33,142 nucleotides of DNA. Origin: Formosa sp. Hel1_33_131. GTDB taxonomy: Bacteria; Bacteroidota; Bacteroidia; Flavobacteriales; Flavobacteriaceae. Of the stretch, positions 2,228-33,142 are shown in pieces. The position numbers were made by a program, and so were the translations under genes. Position 1 is the first letter of the stretch, and every line of letters begins with the position of its first letter. Where the stretch lies: the NCBI GenBank assembly GCA_949499105.1, contig CATEFX010000038.1:1-33142 (forward strand). The letters run 5' to 3'. The notes beneath the pieces were generated by a model. The model was not told where the DNA came from, searched no databases, and saw only the letters and a list, made by a program, of their open reading frames with translations.

Positions 2228-3340
2228 ATGAAACACTCAACTATTTTAACTCTTTTTTTTACGCTTCTAGTAGGATTCTCTCTTGCTGGCTGCTCTTCTA
2301 GCGATGACGGTTCTTCAGGCGAAGGGAACGGCGACGACGGAAATGAACAAGGGATCGTTCCCACGAATATTGTGGCCACAATTGACATCCAAGGACAAGA
2401 TGCTGACAATCCTCAAGGCGATGGTTCGGGTATTTTTAGTGGTACGGTCACAGCAACCGATGCGGTTAATTATGGATTTAAAGTTGGCAGTGGAACAGAA
2501 ACTAAAAACACAACAGGTGTTTTTTCTTACACCGTTAACTCCTCAGGAACCAACCAATTGGCGGTTACTTTTTATGCCTATTCAATAGATGATGAAAAAA
2601 TAAGTACCAGTAAAACACTGACTGTTTTTGTAGAAGGCGGCACGACGGGAGGTTCTGGAAATAACGACACGCTTGTGTGGTCCGATGAATTTGACGGAAA
2701 CGGCAGCATTAATACCAGCGATTGGAATTATGAACTTGGCGCTGGAGGCTGGGGGAATCAAGAAGTCCAAAAATACACCAGCAACTCTCAAAATGTATTT
2801 ATTGAAAACGGAATTTTAAACATAAAAGCCATTAAAGAAACAGACGGCACCTATACCTCGGGTCGTATTACAACTCAAAATAAAGTAGATTTTAAATATG
2901 GCCGTATTGATATACGTGCAAAACTTCCTTCTGTTGCCGGAACGTGGCCTGCACTCTGGATGCTTGGTGCAAATTTTGGATCTTTAGGCTGGCCCTATTG
3001 TGGCGAAATTGACATTATGGAGCAATTCGAAGATAAGACGTATATCCAATCAACTTGTCATTGGAATAACAATAATTCTACCGCTAGTTATGGACTTCCT
3101 ATAGATTTAGCGACCCCTACAGAATTTCATGTGTATTCGTTAGAATGGAATGCTAGCAGCATCAAAGCATTATTAGACGGAGTACAATTTTACTCACTAT
3201 CAACAAGTAGTGCGATGCCTTTTGATGCGAACTTTTTCTTTATATTTAATCTTGCCATGGGTGGGTCCAATGGTGGCACGATAGATCCTAATTTTACTTC
3301 GGACAGTATGGAAGTTGATTATGTGAGAGTTTACCAATAA
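2228..3340 (+). CDS. GH16 endo-beta-glucanase lipoprotein (laminarinase-type)
   Basis: 370 aa. The lipobox is LAGC (Cys22), followed by a Ser/Asp/Gly-rich acidic linker consistent with surface exposure. Residues ~47-136 form an Ig/PKD-like domain related to the one in the preceding lipoprotein (both have GQDADNP and QGDG/NGDG). Residues ~148-370 are the GH16 catalytic domain, with GEIDIMEQF at 259-267: Glu260 nucleophile, Asp262 and Glu265 acid/base. WPALWMLG and the C-terminal VDYVRVYQ are typical of bacterial laminarinases and lichenases. The reaction is endo-hydrolysis of beta-1,3 (or mixed 1,3/1,4) glucan. The ATG lies 1 gene-length spacer (20 bases) after a terminator, and the stop is one base before the GH3 start. 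The exact substrate cannot be fixed from sequence; laminarin is most likely given the GH3 and second GH16. Confidence 0.9.
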   Translation: MKHSTILTLFFTLLVGFSLAGCSSSDDGSSGEGNGDDGNEQGIVPTNIVATIDIQGQDADNPQGDGSGIFSGTVTATDAVNYGFKVGSGTETKNTTGVFSYTVNSSGTNQLAVTFYAYSIDDEKISTSKTLTVFVEGGTTGGSGNNDTLVWSDEFDGNGSINTSDWNYELGAGGWGNQEVQKYTSNSQNVFIENGILNIKAIKETDGTYTSGRITTQNKVDFKYGRIDIRAKLPSVAGTWPALWMLGANFGSLGWPYCGEIDIMEQFEDKTYIQSTCHWNNNNSTASYGLPIDLATPTEFHVYSLEWNASSIKALLDGVQFYSLSTSSAMPFDANFFFIFNLAMGGSNGGTIDPNFTSDSMEVDYVRVYQ

Positions 3341-3341
3341 A

Positions 3342-5639
3342 ATGAAAAAAATAAATTTAATAGTAGTAGCGTTTTGCGTTTTAGGATTTATTTCCTGCCA
3401 AAATTCTAATACAAATAACCCCGAAACCAGTTCACCATCAGTATCCTCTGTTTTAGAGGTTGAACAAAAAGTTACGGCTCTGTTGAAGCAAATGACCCTT
3501 GAAGAAAAAATAGGTCAGATGAACCAATACAATGGCTTTTGGGACCTTACCGGCCCAGCACCAAGTACAGGCGCTGCTGCAAAAAAACACGAACACCTCC
3601 GCAAAGGCTATGTGGGGTCGATGCTCAATGTAAGAGGCGTGGAAAATGTTCGAAAAGTTCAAAAGATCGCCGTCGAAGAAACGCGCTTAGGCATCCCCCT
3701 AATTATAGGGTTTGATGTCATTCATGGCTATGAAACGATCAGTCCAATTCCTTTAGCAGAATCAGCGAGTTGGGATTTAAAAGCTATAAAAAAATCAGCA
3801 CAAGTCGCAGCAGAAGAAGCGGCGGCGGCTGGAATCAATTGGACCTTTGCGCCCATGGTCGACATTTCTCGTGACGCTCGATGGGGGCGTGTCATGGAAG
3901 GTGCTGGCGAAGATCCTTATTTGGGATCTAAAATTGCATTTGCAAGAGTTCAAGGTTTTCAAGGGTCTGATTTATCTCAACATACGACCATTGCTGCCTG
4001 TGCCAAGCATTTTGTAGGCTATGGATTTGCCGAGTCAGGAAGAGAATACAACACAGTTGATGTAGGAACCTCAACCTTAAACAATATTATATTCCCACCA
4101 TTCCAAGCCACTATTGATGCTGGTGTAAGAACTTTTATGAATTCGTTTAATGAATTGAATGGGATTCCTGCAACTGGAAATGAATACTTACAAAGAGATC
4201 TTCTTAAAGATCAATGGGGATTTGATGGATTTATAGTCACCGATTGGGGCTCTATTGAAGAAATGATCTCTCATGGACATGCGAAAGACGGCAAACATGC
4301 CGCAGAAATCGCCGCCAAAGCAGGCTCAGACATGGATATGGAATCGTATCTGTATGTGACCGAATTGGCTAATTTAGTTCGTGAAGGGAACGTTAAAGAA
4401 GCGTATATTGATGCTGCAGCAAGACGTATCTTGCGTGTTAAATTTGAATTAGGCCTTTTTGAGGACCCTTACAAATATTGTAATTTGCAACGCGAAAAAG
4501 AAGTGATTGGACAACAAGCGTTTCATGATGCGGCTTTAGACATGGCAAAAAAGTCAATTGTACTTTTAAAAAATGATAATCAATTATTACCACTTAAAAA
4601 ACAAGGCCAAAAAATCGCATTAATTGGAGCTCTAGCGTCCGACAAAACAAGTCCTTTAGGCAATTGGAGGATTGCTGCGAAAGACAGCACAGCAGTCTCT
4701 GTTTTAGAGGGAATGCAAGCCTATAAAGACAATCAATTAACCTATGCCAAAGGAGCCGATGTAAGTTTGGGTAAAACTAAATTTACAGCCGAACTAAACA
4801 TAAACACGACCAATAGGAGTGAGTTTCCGCAAGCTATTGCTGTGGCCAAAACCGCAGATGTGGTCGTGATGGTATTGGGTGAAGTTGGATATCAAAGTGG
4901 AGAGGCTAGAAGTCGTACAGAATTAGGATTACCAGGCGTTCAGCAAGAACTTCTTGAAGCTATCTACAAGGTTAATAAAAACATTGTTTTAGTCTTAAAC
5001 AACGGAAGACCACTCGTATTAAACTGGCATCAGGAACACCTACCCGCCATTGTAGAAGCGTGGCAGCTAGGGACTCAAAGTGGAAATGCCATTGCGCAAG
5101 TTCTTTATGGTGATTATAATCCAAGTGGAAAATTGCCAATGAGTTTTCCAAGAGCCGTTGGTCAAGTACCGATTTATTATAATTATAAAAATACTGGTCG
5201 TCCTTCGATTCCAGCATCAAATACTGTGTTTTGGTCCCATTTTCAAGACGTGCAAAACACCCCTTTATATCCGTTTGGATATGGTCTAAGCTATACAACA
5301 TTTGAATACACTGCGCTTAAAGCAAAAGTGGTTTCCAATCATGAAATTAAAGTTTCGGTGATTCTCAAAAACTCAGGTAAAATTTCAGGTAAAGAAGTGG
5401 TACAACTCTACATTAAAGACCATTATGCGAGTGTGACGCGTCCAGTCAGAGAATTAAAAGGTTTTGAGTTGGTCCGTCTTGAACCGAATCAAAGTCAAAA
5501 AATAGCATTCACACTTACGGAAAAAGAACTCGGGTTCTATGACAATGAAGGTGATTTCATAGTTGAACTAGGGGACTTCTCAATATTTATTGGCAGCGAT
5601 TCTAACGCAAAACTTCACACTAAAATTACTTTAAAATGA
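3342..5639 (+). CDS. GH3 beta-glucosidase lipoprotein
   Basis: 765 aa, the usual full length for the BglX-like GH3 group. The lipobox ISC (Cys19) is followed by QNSNTNN, which lacks the acidic export signal, so a periplasm-facing location is inferred. The (alpha/beta)8 domain spans ~40-380 with the nucleophile Asp301 in GFIVTDWGS and the substrate-binding KHF (222-224). The alpha/beta sandwich spans ~400-610 with Glu521 in SGEARSR as candidate acid/base. A FnIII-like C-terminal domain covers ~655-760. It releases glucose from the non-reducing end of beta-gluco-oligosaccharides produced by the GH16 enzymes. It starts one base after the first GH16 and overlaps the next GH16 by four bases (ATGA), so translation is coupled and the three genes form one operon. 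Confidence 0.93.
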   Translation: MKKINLIVVAFCVLGFISCQNSNTNNPETSSPSVSSVLEVEQKVTALLKQMTLEEKIGQMNQYNGFWDLTGPAPSTGAAAKKHEHLRKGYVGSMLNVRGVENVRKVQKIAVEETRLGIPLIIGFDVIHGYETISPIPLAESASWDLKAIKKSAQVAAEEAAAAGINWTFAPMVDISRDARWGRVMEGAGEDPYLGSKIAFARVQGFQGSDLSQHTTIAACAKHFVGYGFAESGREYNTVDVGTSTLNNIIFPPFQATIDAGVRTFMNSFNELNGIPATGNEYLQRDLLKDQWGFDGFIVTDWGSIEEMISHGHAKDGKHAAEIAAKAGSDMDMESYLYVTELANLVREGNVKEAYIDAAARRILRVKFELGLFEDPYKYCNLQREKEVIGQQAFHDAALDMAKKSIVLLKNDNQLLPLKKQGQKIALIGALASDKTSPLGNWRIAAKDSTAVSVLEGMQAYKDNQLTYAKGADVSLGKTKFTAELNINTTNRSEFPQAIAVAKTADVVVMVLGEVGYQSGEARSRTELGLPGVQQELLEAIYKVNKNIVLVLNNGRPLVLNWHQEHLPAIVEAWQLGTQSGNAIAQVLYGDYNPSGKLPMSFPRAVGQVPIYYNYKNTGRPSIPASNTVFWSHFQDVQNTPLYPFGYGLSYTTFEYTALKAKVVSNHEIKVSVILKNSGKISGKEVVQLYIKDHYASVTRPVRELKGFELVRLEPNQSQKIAFTLTEKELGFYDNEGDFIVELGDFSIFIGSDSNAKLHTKITLK

Positions 5640-6400
5640 TTGTCAGAATTTTAATACTATTGTTTTTAATCCCAATGGTGGAGATTGACGACTTCTCTAA
5701 ACCGAGACTTTTGTTATCAGAAGATTTTAATACAGAGTCTTTGGATTTAGAAACTTGGAATTATGAGCTTGGAGATGGGTGCCCTAACATCTGTGGCTGG
5801 GGAAATAATGAGCGTCAAGTTTATACTAAAAAAAACATTTCAATTCGTGACCAACAACTGGTCATAACCGCAACCAAAGAAGGAGACAACTATTACTCAG
5901 GACGTATAAGTACAAAAGATAAATTTGAATTTAAATACGGCACCGTTGAAGTTAAGGCGCAGCTTCCACGTGGCAACGGATTATGGCCAGCCATTTGGAT
6001 GTTAGGTCATGATATCGATTCAAACACATGGCCGGCTTGTGGAGAAATTGACATTATGGAGTATGTTGGAAAACAACCTGGAGAAATTCACACCACACTC
6101 CACACCCCAGACAGTTTTGGTAAATCGATAAACACCAAAGTGACCTCTATAGAAGGCATTGAAGCGGGTTTCCATATCTATAAAACGAAATGGGACGCCA
6201 ATCAAATGGAGTTTTATATTGACGACGCCTTAGTTTATACCTTCTCACCAGAAGTTAAAAATGATAAAACCTGGCCTTTTGATAAGCCATTTTATTTGAT
6301 CCTAAATCTTGCTATTGGTGGTAGTTTTGGAGGGCCTGAGGTGGATGACTCCATCTTCCCAAAAGAATTTATAATTGACTACGTTAAAGTTTACCAGTAA
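5636..6400 (+). CDS. GH16 beta-glucanase, second copy
   Basis: 254 aa, essentially only a GH16 domain after a short hydrophobic N-terminus (residues 1-15) that lacks a lipobox Cys; it is probably exported to the periplasm or beyond. The catalytic motif is GEIDIMEYVG (136-145): Glu137 nucleophile, Asp139 and Glu142 acid/base. The EDFNTESLDLETWNYELG start and IIDYVKVYQ end match bacterial laminarinases. Two extra Cys (CPNICGWG, 49-56) may form a disulfide. It differs clearly from the first GH16, so the two probably act at different sites or on different chain lengths: the lipoprotein on long glucan outside, this one on imported oligosaccharides. The start overlaps the GH3 stop. The gene ends one base before the convergent waaA, leaving no room for a terminator between them. 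Confidence 0.9.
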   Translation: MIVRILILLFLIPMVEIDDFSKPRLLLSEDFNTESLDLETWNYELGDGCPNICGWGNNERQVYTKKNISIRDQQLVITATKEGDNYYSGRISTKDKFEFKYGTVEVKAQLPRGNGLWPAIWMLGHDIDSNTWPACGEIDIMEYVGKQPGEIHTTLHTPDSFGKSINTKVTSIEGIEAGFHIYKTKWDANQMEFYIDDALVYTFSPEVKNDKTWPFDKPFYLILNLAIGGSFGGPEVDDSIFPKEFIIDYVKVYQ

Positions 6401-19498: not shown

Positions 19499-22294
19499 AT
19501 GGAATCAATGATGATTTATATGCCAATTGCAATGGCACTTTTAGGTTTAGCATATATGCTAGTTAAAAAATCTTGGGTAATGAAGCAAGACGCAGGGGAT
19601 GGGAAGATGAAAGAAATATCTGACCACATCTACGAAGGTGCTTTAGCTTTCTTAAACGCTGAATACAGGTTGTTAGCAATTTTCGTAGTCGCTGCAAGTA
19701 TCGTTTTAGCAGGAATTGCTTTTTACATGGAGAGCACCTATTTAATTGTAGTTGCCTTTGTTATCGGTGCTATATTTTCTGCATTTGCAGGAAACATGGG
19801 AATGAAAATAGCCACTAAAACAAATGTAAGAACAACGCAAGCTGCTAAAACAAGCTTACCAAATGCACTAAAAGTTTCTTTTGGTGGTGGAACGGTTATG
19901 GGACTTGGAGTTGCGGGTTTAGCGGTCTTAGGTTTAACCCTTTTCTTTATTATATTCTTTCATACGTTTATGGGCGGTGAATGGACGAACACGACTGATA
20001 TGACGATTGTATTAGAAGCATTAGCTGGTTTCTCTTTAGGAGCGGAGTCTATTGCGTTATTTGCAAGAGTCGGTGGTGGAATTTATACAAAAGCAGCCGA
20101 TGTAGGCGCTGATTTAGCAGGTAAAGTTCAAGCAGATATCCCTGAAGATGACCCAAGAAACCCAGCGACAATTGCTGATAATGTTGGTGACAATGTTGGA
20201 GATGTTGCAGGAATGGGAGCCGATTTATTTGGTTCGTATGTAGCCACTGTTTTGGCAGCCATGGTATTAGGTAACTATGTCATTAAAGATATGGGCGGAA
20301 GTATTACGGATGCTTTTGGTGGAATTGGACCCATTTTATTACCAATGTCGATTGCTGGCGTTGGAATTATTATTTCTCTTATCGGAACTTTATTAGTTAA
20401 AATTTCTTCAAACGATGCAAAAGAAGCGGACGTACAAAAAGCATTAAACATAGGGAACTGGGCTTCAATCTTAATGGTTGCTGTAGCATGTTATGGTTTA
20501 GTAACTTGGATGTTGCCAGCGACCATGCAAATGGATTTCTTTGGTGAAGGGTTGCAAGAGATATCTTCAATAAGAGTATTCTATGCGTGTTTAGTAGGCT
20601 TAGTCGTAGGTGCTGGAATCTCAGCATTTACTGAATACTACACTGGACTCGGTTCAAAACCAATCTTAAAAATTGTACAACAATCAAGTACAGGCGCTGG
20701 AACCAACATTATTGCTGGTTTAGCGACGGGGATGATTTCTACATTCTCTTCTGTATTATTATTCGCAGCGGCCATATGGGCCTCTTATGCTCTAGCAGGA
20801 TTTTATGGAGTTGCTTTAGCAGCCTCTGCAATGATGGCCACAACTGCAATGCAGTTAGCAATTGATGCTTTTGGACCTATTGCTGATAATGCAGGTGGTA
20901 TTGCTGAAATGAGTGAGCAAGATCCAATCGTAAGAGAACGCACCGATATTTTAGATGCTGTTGGGAATACAACTGCTGCAACAGGAAAAGGATTTGCAAT
21001 TGCTTCAGCGGCATTAACGTCATTGGCCTTATTTGCTGCCTATGTAACTTTTACTGGGATCGATGGAATTAACATCTTTAAAGCGCCGGTATTAGCCATG
21101 TTATTTGTTGGTGGAATGGTGCCAGTAGTATTCTCTGCACTTGCAATGAATGCAGTTGGTAAAGCAGCCATGGAAATGGTAAATGAAGTGGTAAGACAGT
21201 TTAAAGAAATTCCAGGAATTATGGAAGGAACTGGAAAACCAGAATATGATAAATGTGTTGCAATATCTACAAAAGCATCGTTAAAAGAAATGATGTTACC
21301 AGGGTTATTAACCATTGGATTCCCTATAGCTGTTGTGTTAGTAGGTAAACTAGTGTATCAAGATAACAACATGCTGGTTGCCGAAATGTTAGGGGGTTAT
21401 ATGGCAGGTGTCACTGTAAGTGGTGTACTTTGGGCTATTTTCCAAAACAACGCAGGGGGTGCTTGGGATAACGCTAAGAAGTCTTTCGAAGCTGGTGTTG
21501 AGATTAACGGCGTCATGACTTACAAAGGTTCTGAAGCTCACAAAGCAGCCGTGACAGGGGATACTGTTGGAGATCCATTTAAAGATACGTCTGGACCATC
21601 AATGAATATTTTGATTAAACTTACGTGTTTAATTGGACTAGTGATTGCACCAATCTTAGGAGGTCACTCCGACGAATCTAATGGAGAGACACAAAAATTT
21701 AGCTACAGTCTAGGAGTCAATGTGGCTACAGGCGTAAAGTCTCAAGGGATAGAGTCTATCGATTCTAAAGCCATTGCAAAATCTTTTAAAGATGTATTTG
21801 ATGGTAATAATTTAGAAGTTACTGAAGAAGAAAGTTTACAGTTTTTACAAACTTATTTCAATGAATTTAAAGCTAAAAAACAGTTAAAAGATGCTGAAAA
21901 GTTTAAAGCTTTAGCACAAGAAGGCATTGCTTTTTTAGCTGAAAACGCCAAAAAAGAGGGCGTAACTTCGACTGATAGCGGCCTACAGTATGAGGTACTT
22001 ACTAAAGGCGATGGTGCCTCACCAAGTGCTGAAAACAGTGTGACGGTACATTACACAGGAACTTTGATTGATGGGACTGTTTTTGATAGTTCAGTTGAGC
22101 GTGGAACGCCAGCTACATTTGGGGTTTCACAAGTAATACCAGGTTGGACAGAAGCTCTACAATTAATGTCTGTTGGAGACAAGTGGCGTTTGGTCATCCC
22201 CTCTCAATTAGCGTATGGAGCAAGAGGTTCAGGAGCTAAGATTGGACCTAATTCAACGTTAGTATTTGAAGTTGAACTTCTTAAAATAAATTAA
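19499..22294 (+). CDS. hppA: Membrane-bound ion-pumping pyrophosphatase fused to an FKBP-type prolyl isomerase
   Basis: 931 aa. Residues 1-~720 are a complete M-PPase with about 16 membrane helices and the signature [10 protein letters not shown]...[20 protein letters not shown] (201-235). [10 protein letters not shown] (489-498) has Ala493 and Gly496, the pattern of K+-dependent enzymes. Glu183 in TM5 ([11 protein letters not shown]) replaces the gate glutamate of helix 6, where Gly and Ala occupy the usual positions. Residues ~733-815 form an FkpA/FKBP_N-like helical domain, and ~825-931 a full FKBP domain ([30 protein letters not shown]). It couples pyrophosphate hydrolysis to cation export. 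As the C-terminus of M-PPases is extracytoplasmic, the isomerase should sit in the periplasm. No start or signal peptide precedes the FKBP part, so the fusion looks genuine. Confidence 0.93.
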
Positions 22295-22312: not shown

Positions 22313-22344
22313 AAAAAAATCACCTCATTGAGGTGATTTTTTTT
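22313..22344. terminator. Bidirectional terminator between hppA and the deoxynucleoside kinase gene
   Basis: The stem AATCACCTC/GAGGTGATT has a very short loop, with an A run on the left and a T run on the right, so it can act on both strands between these convergent genes. Confidence 0.85.
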
Positions 22345-22983: not shown

Positions 22984-23763
22984 TCAATTGTTTAAAAGTT
23001 GGTAGTGGTGAAGAAATTCTTCGTCATAAATATACAAGCTTTGGTTGGTTACAAAAAACTGTTTTACTAAAACTTTGTTTAAGTTTAACATCAAAAAGGT
23101 TTCAGCGTTTTTTGGTTTATAATAAAGGTCATTTCCTCTCTTTAAAAACAACACACCATTCCAAAGTTTTAAATCTGTATACCCTTGATGCGGTAGTTTT
23201 GCAATGAGGCTTCCCGTATAATTATAACAATGCAACTCAGTATCGAGCAAAACCCAGCAATAATTATAATCACTCTCTAAGGCGAGAACTTCCCCAGAGA
23301 GCGGTGCTGTTTTAACCTTTGTTTTAGAAGAGCTGTAATCAAATAATTCTAACTGTAATGTATTGGAATCAAACAGCCAAAAGCTCGTATCATTTCCATA
23401 AGAAATGTTGGACACTGTTCGCAAGGGACTCAGCGTATTAAAGTCAACGGCGATCAGTTCAGCTAAGCGGTTGTCTAAAAGAGTAACGGAATTAAAGTCT
23501 TTATAAAATAAGGCTAATTTTAGGGCATTAAACACCGAGACTTCACTAATAGCACCTTTATTTAGATCGCTATAATTTTGTAGACCTTGGCTATTTTTTT
23601 TAAAAAGCACATTCGAGTTTAAGAAATAAAGAGATTCAAATTGATCCATTCCAACAAATTGGTCCCATGCGACAGGCGTGGATACCAGCAAATCGGCACG
23701 CATATTGGTTTGACCAAAAAGCCAACAATTGAAAAGCAGTATAAAATAAAGAGGCTGTTTCAT
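22984..23763 (-). CDS. Exported protein of unknown function, probably beta-propeller-like
   Basis: 259 aa. A signal peptide (MKQPLYFILLFNCWLFGQ) predicts periplasmic location. The remainder is rich in short hydrophobic/aromatic strands with repeated units of the type SYGNDTSFWLFDSNTLQLELFDY, ALESDYNYCWVLL and LKLWNGVLFLKRGNDLYY, suggesting a propeller fold. No catalytic motif is seen. It is translated just upstream of the deoxynucleoside kinase (four-base gap). It is divergent from the GLPGLI genes over a 99-base spacer. Confidence 0.7.
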   Translation of the reverse strand: MKQPLYFILLFNCWLFGQTNMRADLLVSTPVAWDQFVGMDQFESLYFLNSNVLFKKNSQGLQNYSDLNKGAISEVSVFNALKLALFYKDFNSVTLLDNRLAELIAVDFNTLSPLRTVSNISYGNDTSFWLFDSNTLQLELFDYSSSKTKVKTAPLSGEVLALESDYNYCWVLLDTELHCYNYTGSLIAKLPHQGYTDLKLWNGVLFLKRGNDLYYKPKNAETFLMLNLNKVLVKQFFVTNQSLYIYDEEFLHHYQLLNN

Positions 23764-30871: not shown

Positions 30872-33142
30872 TTAAGGGGTTAGTCTTACAGATACGTTAT
30901 CTACATTCAATCTGGCTGCACTATTAACAATTTCAATAAGGAAAGTTAAACCTCCTTCTACTTGATTTGCATTTACAGGCGTTGTAAAGGTAAATATTTT
31001 CGTTTCCCAAGATGTTGTTGATATAGACGTTGTATTATCCGTAAGAGTGTGTTTGGTTGCTGCGACATTTCCACCATTGGGACCTTCAGAAAATGTATAT
31101 GCTTTAACAACTCCACCTTCGCCCAATCCATCAGAAGCAATGATATCAAACTGAACCGTATAAGAGGTATTTGGTTGAACTAAACCAACTCCAAAACGTT
31201 CCATTCTAAGTTCAACAGCAACACCAGTTGAACCTTGCAATTCAGCGGATTGCGTACCACCATTACTAACTGTCGTAGAAATTGTTACGCCATCAAAAAG
31301 TTGCCAGCAACCAACATTGCCTGCTTCAAAATCACCATTGGCTAACAACTCACCTGCTGGAACTACAGGACAATTACCTACACCGCCATCGCCGTAAAGT
31401 TTTAGGTCATCGAAATAGTAAGTGTCGGTATTGTTTGCTCCTAAGTCAAAGAAAATTACTATTTTATTAAATTTACCACTATCAGCTGCTGAGAAAGGGA
31501 ATGTTAACTCTTCCCAACCACTGGTTACTGAAGTAGTGAAAAACTTATCAATATAATTACCTGCATTTCCAATCTCTTCTAACTTTAATCGAACTTCGGT
31601 ATTTGGTCTTGCAGACCATACTTTAATTTTTAAGCCAGTGTTTGCCACAAAATCTAATTTTGCATCTAAATCGTATTGATTATAATCCCACGGATTGATA
31701 TTCGCCTTAACAACTTTTCCTACTTTACAAGAAGTGTTTACTGCATTGTCAAAATCGGGATTGTCTACCCATGAAAAATTAGCGCCATCAGAAATAAAAT
31801 CTTCAGATGGATCCGATTGAAACGTCATGTTTAGGTTTGAAGCACTGTAAGATTCAGTGGTTTCAGGATCACAAACTAAAAAACCTTCATCAATCTCCCC
31901 ATCACAGTCGTTATCGATTCCGTCTATTATTTCGGTGGCAGCTGGGTTTATAGAAGCATCTGTATCATCACAATCGCCTTCATTTTCCGTGAAGCCATCA
32001 TTGTCATCGTCAATGTCCAAATGTGCAATAGGTTTTTCTGTTTGGTACTTGGCGTACCATGCAAATTCTCCGCCTTCTTGGATAAATCTCACATGTAGTT
32101 CTGTAGCGCTAATTGAAATGATATCATAGACTGTTTCACCAATGTACCAGCCCATAAATCCACCGTCGGATAACTGAAAACTCGTCATTGTGTAAGGAAC
32201 GTCGCCATAAGATCCTTCAACTGCTGCTTTAGATGTGGATGGTGAGAATGCTACATTTTTAATTCCAAACATCGTTGTTGCAACTGTTTCGTCGTGGCAA
32301 ATATCACCAGTTAATCCTATAACATCCGCATAAGCTCCTGGAATATATGCAGGGCCTACTGTTTGTTCAAAAGTGAGACCATTTGCTGTTGTTGTAAAAA
32401 CAAATTCGTTGGTGTACATACATGATTTTTCTGGATCATTGGGTTGTATTGTATACCAAGCTGGAAATGCAAATTCGCCATTGCCGTAGTCATCTGTAAC
32501 AGGACCTAGACCTATATGCAGATACTTATCGGATTGCCAATACCAGGTTTGTGAACTTCCAATGTCATCAACTGTGGAGGCACCTGTTAATAAATTTGAA
32601 ATTTCATCTATCTGATTATCGACGATGCCATCGCAATTGTTGTCAATTCCATCTGTCAAATCTTCTGCTCCTGGACTTACTGAAGCATTATCATCATCAC
32701 AATCCCCTTGGTTTTCTGTGTAGCCGTCATTGTCATTATCAATGTTATCAGGATGATTGCCTTTTACAAAACGCACTGAAAAGCCTTGCTGCTTTAAGCC
32801 TTTGCCCGTGCTTAGGGGAAAGTAATTGCCGTTCAGGCCTAGGCCCCACGCGCCATCTGCATTGCTCTCAGTGGAACTCCAAAAGATCGCATTGTTACCC
32901 TCATTGCTGAACGAACCATCGTTGAGACAGCCACCCTCAGGGAAGGCGTTAAAGCCGCTGCTGTTGTTTAAACTTTGGTCGTTGCCTATGGCTCCTAATT
33001 CTGTTGAACTGTTCCAACCTGTAGTAGAAGCCATCGCTTTACCTATTTTGTTTCCTGTAGTGGTACCGTCGTAATTATAGCCGTTGGCTATTAAGTGTTC
33101 TTCTAAAGTGATCCACTCCGTATTACTTGGTACGTGCCAACC
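30872..33142 (-). CDS. Large multidomain secreted protein: FISUMP domain, DxDxDG repeats, shared SGBP domain and CBM-like modules (5' end outside window)
   Basis: Open to the right edge; at least 756 residues. It begins with GWHVPSNTEW, typical of the Fibrobacter succinogenes major paralogous (FISUMP) domain, which ends at GFSVRFVKG. Two acidic segments (DNDNDGYTENQGDCDDD...DGIDNNCDG and DDDNDGFTENEGDCDD...DGIDNDCDG) match the MopE-like putative metal-binding motif and flank the ~170-residue domain shared with the PKD lipoprotein. A CBM-like beta-sandwich (ending YYFDDLKLYG) and a CBM4/9-like module (LLANGDFEAGNVGCW...LNVDNVSVRL) follow. It ends without a T9SS tail. Probably a surface or secreted glucan-binding protein, possibly of another PUL to the right. 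No catalytic motif is visible. Confidence 0.8.
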   Translation of the reverse strand, partial: GWHVPSNTEWITLEEHLIANGYNYDGTTTGNKIGKAMASTTGWNSSTELGAIGNDQSLNNSSGFNAFPEGGCLNDGSFSNEGNNAIFWSSTESNADGAWGLGLNGNYFPLSTGKGLKQQGFSVRFVKGNHPDNIDNDNDGYTENQGDCDDDNASVSPGAEDLTDGIDNNCDGIVDNQIDEISNLLTGASTVDDIGSSQTWYWQSDKYLHIGLGPVTDDYGNGEFAFPAWYTIQPNDPEKSCMYTNEFVFTTTANGLTFEQTVGPAYIPGAYADVIGLTGDICHDETVATTMFGIKNVAFSPSTSKAAVEGSYGDVPYTMTSFQLSDGGFMGWYIGETVYDIISISATELHVRFIQEGGEFAWYAKYQTEKPIAHLDIDDDNDGFTENEGDCDDTDASINPAATEIIDGIDNDCDGEIDEGFLVCDPETTESYSASNLNMTFQSDPSEDFISDGANFSWVDNPDFDNAVNTSCKVGKVVKANINPWDYNQYDLDAKLDFVANTGLKIKVWSARPNTEVRLKLEEIGNAGNYIDKFFTTSVTSGWEELTFPFSAADSGKFNKIVIFFDLGANNTDTYYFDDLKLYGDGGVGNCPVVPAGELLANGDFEAGNVGCWQLFDGVTISTTVSNGGTQSAELQGSTGVAVELRMERFGVGLVQPNTSYTVQFDIIASDGLGEGGVVKAYTFSEGPNGGNVAATKHTLTDNTTSISTTSWETKIFTFTTPVNANQVEGGLTFLIEIVNSAARLNVDNVSVRLTP
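32042..32554 (-). repeat. Copy 2 of the ~510-bp coding repeat shared with 1639-2145
   Basis: Encodes the HIGLGP...AWYAKY domain, inverted relative to copy 1 and ~30 kb away. It is flanked on both sides by DxDxDG acidic segments. Confidence 0.85.

Follow-up and report, generated by a model that had tools for sequence, protein, structure and literature searches.

The window, that is, the whole 33,142-nucleotide stretch analyzed here, comprises all of one contig (C38) of a fragmented MAG that is 86.6% complete. It contains a gene in which a membrane-bound pyrophosphatase (M-PPase) is joined in frame to an FKBP-type prolyl isomerase. A sequence-only reading of this DNA had proposed that the M-PPase continues into the FKBP without a stop, which was confirmed by one open reading frame of 931 codons, starting with ATG and without internal stop, and by the Pfam domains found on the 931-aa protein (Table 1). 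Five terminator-like stem-loops were found in the region, compared with 2.5 in shuffled sequences; one of them separates the fusion gene from the convergent dNK gene.

Table 1. Coordinates of the fusion gene, its parts and the downstream interval in the window
Feature	Position	Strand	Basis
M-PPase-FKBP fusion gene	19499..22294	+	Open reading frame and Pfam; fusion recurs in 5 other genus genomes and in L172-L174
M-PPase domain (H_PPase, PF03030, profile 1-645 of 645)	19538..21646	+	Pfam, residues 14-716, 830 bits, above gathering score; alignment to Vigna radiata PPase
TM16, last pump helix (about residues 696-722), predicted to lead the chain to the periplasmic side	21584..21664	+	Hydropathy and alignment
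Polar linker, residues 724-731, variable	21668..21691	+	Comparison with relatives, dN/dS
FKBP_N, N-terminal helical domain of Mip-type FKBPs	21692..21997	+	PF01346, residues 732-833, 80.6 bits, above gathering score; block pLDDT 74-95
FKBP_C, catalytic domain	22022..22282	+	PF00254, residues 842-928, 106.5 bits, above gathering score; conserved columns; Foldseek matches to Mip/FkpA-type structures
Terminator-like stem-loop, intergenic (fusion gene/convergent dNK gene)	22313..22343	.	Consensus match only

Several other genes of the window were noted. A run of GH16, GH3 and GH16 genes beside CBM and PKD proteins (2228-6400) looks like a beta-glucan utilization cluster, the substrate of which we take to be perhaps laminarin. 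The gene at 30872-33034 (-) codes for a protein of 720 aa that has MopE-type metal-binding motifs as well as a domain for carbohydrate binding. The 259-aa open reading frame at 22984-23763 (-), which gave no Pfam or NCBIfam match, adjoins the dNK gene in five of nine relatives' loci, with 28-78% identity.

Recurrence of the fusion in the genus and beyond

Residues 640-931 of the fusion protein were searched against all 18 genus genomes, among them that of the window itself (G000). The full fusion was present in six of these, i.e. in six of the 15 genomes with a pump match, and each is a separate assembly: G000 itself, G695 (98%), G691 (97%), G698 (95%), G694 (90%) and G685 (80%). The tails of loci L172 and L174 are identical to those of G694 and G685, respectively, and L173 represents a further fused species. 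In nine genomes the pump ends in a short unrelated tail with no FKBP fused to it, and the separate FKBPs of genomes with an unfused pump matched the fusion query only partially. No pump match was obtained from G687, G692 and G696, which are 76-80% complete. One genus-mate assembled as a single contig (G123, locus L068) has the gene order pdhB - DUF5686 - pump - dNK, as in the window; its pump is 96.6% identical to that of the window over residues 1-727 and ends in a tail of ~67 residues without an FKBP.

An assembly chimera, or a frameshift missed within one MAG, would be conceivable for a source genome as fragmented and incomplete as this one. Such an artefact has a negligible probability, because independent assemblies agree: five other genomes of the genus, as well as genomes from other families, have the same fusion, and this recurrence rules out a chimeric contig. 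A stop or frameshift at the junction is likewise incompatible with five more fused genomes. Nor do the relatives always encode two separate proteins, since five more are fused and the nine unfused pumps carry an unrelated tail.

The fusion belongs to some marine Bacteroidota and is rare in wider samples. The class sample (n=395) contained at least five genomes matching across the junction, namely G000 and four from a single genus of family f29, a family in which the fusion occurs in 4 of 16 genomes. At least two junction-spanning genomes (G000 and G767) were found in the order sample (n=395) and at least one in the phylum sample (n=178); the class, order and phylum samples overlap, and junction-spanning matches rank first in them. 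Within the Flavobacteriaceae sample, G000 was the sole fusion among the best 150 of 277 matching genomes. G767 and locus L180 are apparently one organism, with equal frame length, contig number and FKBP identity. A search of viral contigs revealed no relative.

Pump type, orientation of the C-terminus and the isomerase

The pump part gave a full-length PF03030 match and has the catalytic motifs of membrane-bound pyrophosphatases in the alignment to the Vigna radiata PPase (VrPPase). We take R190 of the pump to correspond to R242 of VrPPase and to position 5.50. The alignment places Glu183 at 5.43, Gly245 at 6.53, Ala249 at 6.57, Asn703 at 16.46 and Lys707 at 16.50, and GNTTA at 489-493, with Ala493 as its final residue. 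According to the excerpts available of the published work, the Flavobacterium johnsoniae H+-PPase has a semi-conserved Glu at 5.43, and K+ dependence is tied to the terminal Ala in GNXX(K/A) (PMC10897367, PMC6882861, PMC5150537, PMC9405524); in its accessible part, one of these sources (PMC10897367) states that there is no pattern of residues from which selectivity could be predicted for all subclasses. The window's pump has the residues of the F. johnsoniae-type K+-dependent H+-PPases, i.e. Glu at 5.43, none at 6.53 or 6.57, and Ala493, and it has Gly245 at 6.53, where Na+-PPases have Glu. Because of the Glu at 5.43, the Gly and Ala at 6.53 and 6.57, and the GNTTA motif, the pump is most likely a K+-dependent proton pump of the F. 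johnsoniae type. The best NCBIfam model for the pump is named sodium-translocating; despite this name, a Na+ pump is disfavored by the residues.

The hydropathy profile peaks at residues 704-722 (TM16). Past residue 723 its maximum is 0.79, compared with at least 1.25 for the pump segments, and C-terminal of that residue the profile never reaches the hydrophobicity of the pump helices. K695 and D696 align with the ionic-network residues 16.38 and 16.39, and K707 with the ion-gate position 16.50. The available portion of PMC6882861 counts 16.38 and 16.39 among the residues of the ionic network; beneath this network, in mid-membrane, lies the ion gate, which includes 16.46 and 16.50. In published structures, as described in the excerpts at hand, the hydrolytic center has the ion gate and exit channel on its periplasmic side. 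Since the gate residues lie below the ionic network in TM16, this helix would run outward and the chain would leave the membrane on the periplasmic side. The C-terminus of the fusion should be periplasmic, judging from homology and the published structures, and the positions of the TM16 residues speak for the extracytoplasmic C-terminus that the sequence-only reading had assumed.

The FKBP part passed the cut-off of NCBIfam model PRK11570 (FKBP22-like) over FKBP_N and FKBP_C, with 212 bits against 198, and that of BamJ, with 117.4 bits against 100. It stayed below the cut-offs of the NCBIfam models GldI and BamM. With 139.4 bits against 215 it was also below the cut-off of the FkpA equivalog PRK10902, and membership of FkpA was rejected on this score. 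The solved structures nearest by sequence are Mip-type, and Foldseek searches with the FKBP model matched Mip-type, PaFkbA and FkpA structures. The AlphaFold model is usable for the FKBP part only, which is well modeled (block mean pLDDT 74-97); the pump part is poor, with 438 of the 931 residues of the protein under pLDDT 50. In a 40-row alignment, Y852, F862, D863, V879, I880, W883, Y906 and F923 are invariant and R868 is conserved in at least 90% of the rows. We take these residues to match the active site of FKBP12, with F46 and H87 of FKBP12 replaced, as in Mip. By these matches the FKBP is of the Mip/FKBP22 type, to which it is nearer than to FkpA. The fused FKBP_N and FKBP_C pair was recognized correctly in the sequence-only reading, but the label FkpA-like needs correction, PRK11570 being passed and PRK10902 failed.

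The ten nearest stand-alone FKBPs that were fetched all belong to family f87 and share 62.9-66.0% identity with the fused one. By eye, a signal peptide and a lipobox-like Cys were present in all ten, and these proteins look like secreted lipoproteins. The fused FKBP domain begins at about the start of their mature domain. As the f87 relatives are lipoprotein-like and the junction falls close to the mature-domain start, TM16 would appear to replace both the signal peptide and the lipid anchor, in line with the earlier idea that the last pump helix takes the place of a signal peptide. We consider it probable, with moderate confidence, that the pump both exports a periplasmic PPIase/chaperone and anchors it, keeping it tethered to the inner membrane.

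Alternatively, the linker could be cut after export to free a soluble periplasmic FKBP, the pump then acting as a cleavable export signal. The linker is short, polar and variable, as such processing would suggest, but a common cleavage motif was not seen by eye across the fused species, and the nearest stand-alone relatives appear lipid-anchored, not soluble; cleavage is thus regarded as very unlikely.

Origins, selection and exchange of pump tails

FKBP trees were built with one row per locus, first with 96 rows and then with 90 plus 11 added, out of 176 found. These trees and the pump-core trees resulted from quick searches; in the FKBP tree and in the pump-core tree that were tested with constraints, the search missed a better tree for one grouping each, and branch details are weak. 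By their FKBP parts, L173 and the window's genus formed one clade (SH-aLRT 93 in the 96-row tree and 99 in the 90-row tree). The fused FKBPs of family f29 nest among the stand-alone FKBPs of the same family, and in three f29 genomes (G326, G591 and G402) a closely placed stand-alone FKBP copy lies directly downstream of the fused gene. A single origin of all FKBP fusions was rejected (AU test, p = 0.0004), and one origin for the window's clade and G767 was not (p-AU 0.71). Because the constraint of all fused FKBPs to one clade was rejected, the FKBP-pump fusion arose at least twice; two origins, not three, is the safe count. L173 has a window-type FKBP, yet its pump core falls outside the window's clade (p-AU 0.005), and this mismatch suggests that tails and pump cores recombine.

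At locus L069, from a genome of another genus (G239), the pump core is 96% identical to that of the window, and the other matched genes are 36-84% identical. Transfer or gene conversion of this pump core is possible.

Both enzymes of the fusion are kept by selection, as indicated by low dN/dS: 0.01-0.06 for the pump in 10 of 10 pairs of fused genes, and 0.04-0.22 for the FKBP domains in 18 of 20 comparisons (10 pairs of fused genes, two domains), the other two being saturated. Purifying selection acts on the pump and on the FKBP domains. For the linker stretch 717-731, dN/dS was 0.07-0.67 in the seven of 10 pairs where it was computable.

The fusion of M-PPase and FKBP was borne out in Bacteroidota relatives, but the pattern is wider than FKBP and extends to YceI, OmpA-C, SnoaL-like and Cys-rich tails. 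Ten tails of relatives were tested with Pfam: five were YceI, one OmpA and one FKBP (f29), one was SnoaL-like just under the cut-off (25.9 vs 27; L121), and nothing scored above the cut-off in the last two, of which one is a repeat tail and the other contains Cys. A YceI-fused query matched to residue 224 or beyond of 294 in at least 56 of 395 class genomes from 19 families; the Pfam check covers three of the 56 (G670, G627 and G367), seven have a stop within the matched stretch, and one of these seven, G399 (open frame 782), is doubtful.

At individual loci, a YceI-type domain directly follows TM16 in L073, L076, L111-L118, L149, L266 and L267. YceI function is related to isoprenoids or lipids, and an isoprenoid or lipid link of the YceI-tailed M-PPases is possible. 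An OmpA-C-like domain follows TM16 in L074 (by Pfam) and in L075, L253 and L254 (by likeness to L074), and could tie the pump to peptidoglycan. SnoaL/NTF2-like tails occur in L121 and L122. Ten M-PPases (L255-L264, from families f21, f22, f28, f38, f54 and f61) have tails that are Cys-rich by eye, most with a CDMSKC..MTKEECA-like repeat, and possibly these are metal-binding periplasmic tails. Many Flavobacteriaceae pumps (for example L072, L028 and L033) end in a short, sometimes doubled ATVTT..ENG..GTEEVEAK-like element, which in L072 gave no Pfam match above cut-off.

Tail switching among Bacteroidota M-PPases is clearly repeated. When 121 distinct pump cores were placed on a quick tree, at least 26 changes of tail type were needed, and 26 again with 120 cores; these 121 pumps represent 145 collapsed loci, many of them chosen non-randomly for long open frames, and the tail labels are crude. 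With this crude labeling, the commonest tail, in 63 of the 121 pumps, is short and sometimes doubled, with GTEEV-like motifs.

These tails bear on whether the FKBP regulates the pump, a function that we regard as unlikely. From its place at the end of TM16, close to the exit channel, the FKBP might alter how the pump assembles, how asymmetric the dimer is or how the exit channel is gated; it is attached to a helix, TMH16, that moves in the TmPPase cycle according to the available excerpt of PMC12614893, and coupling is affected by exit-channel properties, as given in the accessible part of PMC6882861. However, unrelated domains occupy the same end (FKBP, YceI, OmpA, SnoaL-like just below cut-off, and Cys-rich by eye) and the linker is variable. 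With such diverse domains at one point, a general use of the pump end for export and anchoring is favored over regulation specific to FKBP.

The same switching, together with the patchy presence of the fusion inside one genus, could also mean that any secreted domain that comes to lie in frame behind TM16 is exported for free, with no gain for either partner. This is rather improbable, given the purifying selection on the FKBP domains, the preserved active site, and an architecture with at least two origins.

Proposed export and anchoring by the pump in relation to known systems

In the preferred reading, PPi hydrolysis would power a K+-dependent H+ pump whose periplasmic C-terminus is extended by a Mip/FKBP22-type prolyl isomerase. 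TM16 would both export the isomerase and anchor it at the inner membrane. The isomerase may act there as a membrane-bound periplasmic folding factor, tethered by the pump as the stand-alone relatives are by a lipid anchor. The FKBP fusion would be one case of a wider Bacteroidota habit of placing periplasmic-type domains on this pump end. Against export and anchoring as the role of the pump stand the nine of 15 pumps of the genus that do without an FKBP and the rarity of the fusion in wider samples, and a domain fused at this pump end might be tolerated without being favored by selection.

A bolder extension, quite doubtful in our view, is that the C-terminus of Bacteroidota M-PPases is a plug-in port where periplasmic modules are swapped again and again, and in which TM16 motion or local proton release drives the attached module. 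Since every PPi cycle involves movement of TM16, the pump would hand on motion or proton release directly. If true, such a port would let PPi power a periplasmic chaperone (FKBP), a domain that binds lipids (YceI) or a link to peptidoglycan (OmpA-C).

The fusions suggest the pump end as a natural export-and-anchor site for envelope-type domains, and with them it becomes testable whether PPi energy metabolism is linked to envelope biogenesis in Bacteroidota. They also serve as naturally occurring evidence on how the M-PPase C-terminus is oriented. Both protein families are known, and M-PPases are viewed as pumps without added domains in the literature excerpts available. Within the open-access texts searched, as far as accessible, no description was found of an M-PPase with FKBP or another such tail domain, or of tail switching; this is no proof of absence, but it agrees with the sequence-only reading, to which the fusion seemed undescribed.

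Compared with known systems, the pump resembles the F. johnsoniae H+-PPase in Glu183 at 5.43, in Gly/Ala at 6.53/6.57 and in the Ala that ends GNXX(K/A). It differs in its extra C-terminal domain, none being mentioned in the accessible excerpts on that pump type. Other tail-bearing Bacteroidota M-PPases likewise have a periplasmic-type domain right after TM16; unlike in the window, it belongs to the YceI, OmpA-C, Cys-rich or SnoaL-like families, which are unrelated to FKBP. In relation to the BamJ/GldI/BamM FKBP family of Bacteroidota (NCBIfam), the window's FKBP is accepted by the BamJ model and scores higher with PRK11570. With the Mip/FKBP22-type proteins (FklB, PaFkbA and Mip, FkpA being more distant) it shares the order of FKBP_N and FKBP_C, the active-site residues and the fold. 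Unlike these, it lacks its own signal peptide and lipobox and is joined to a membrane pump.
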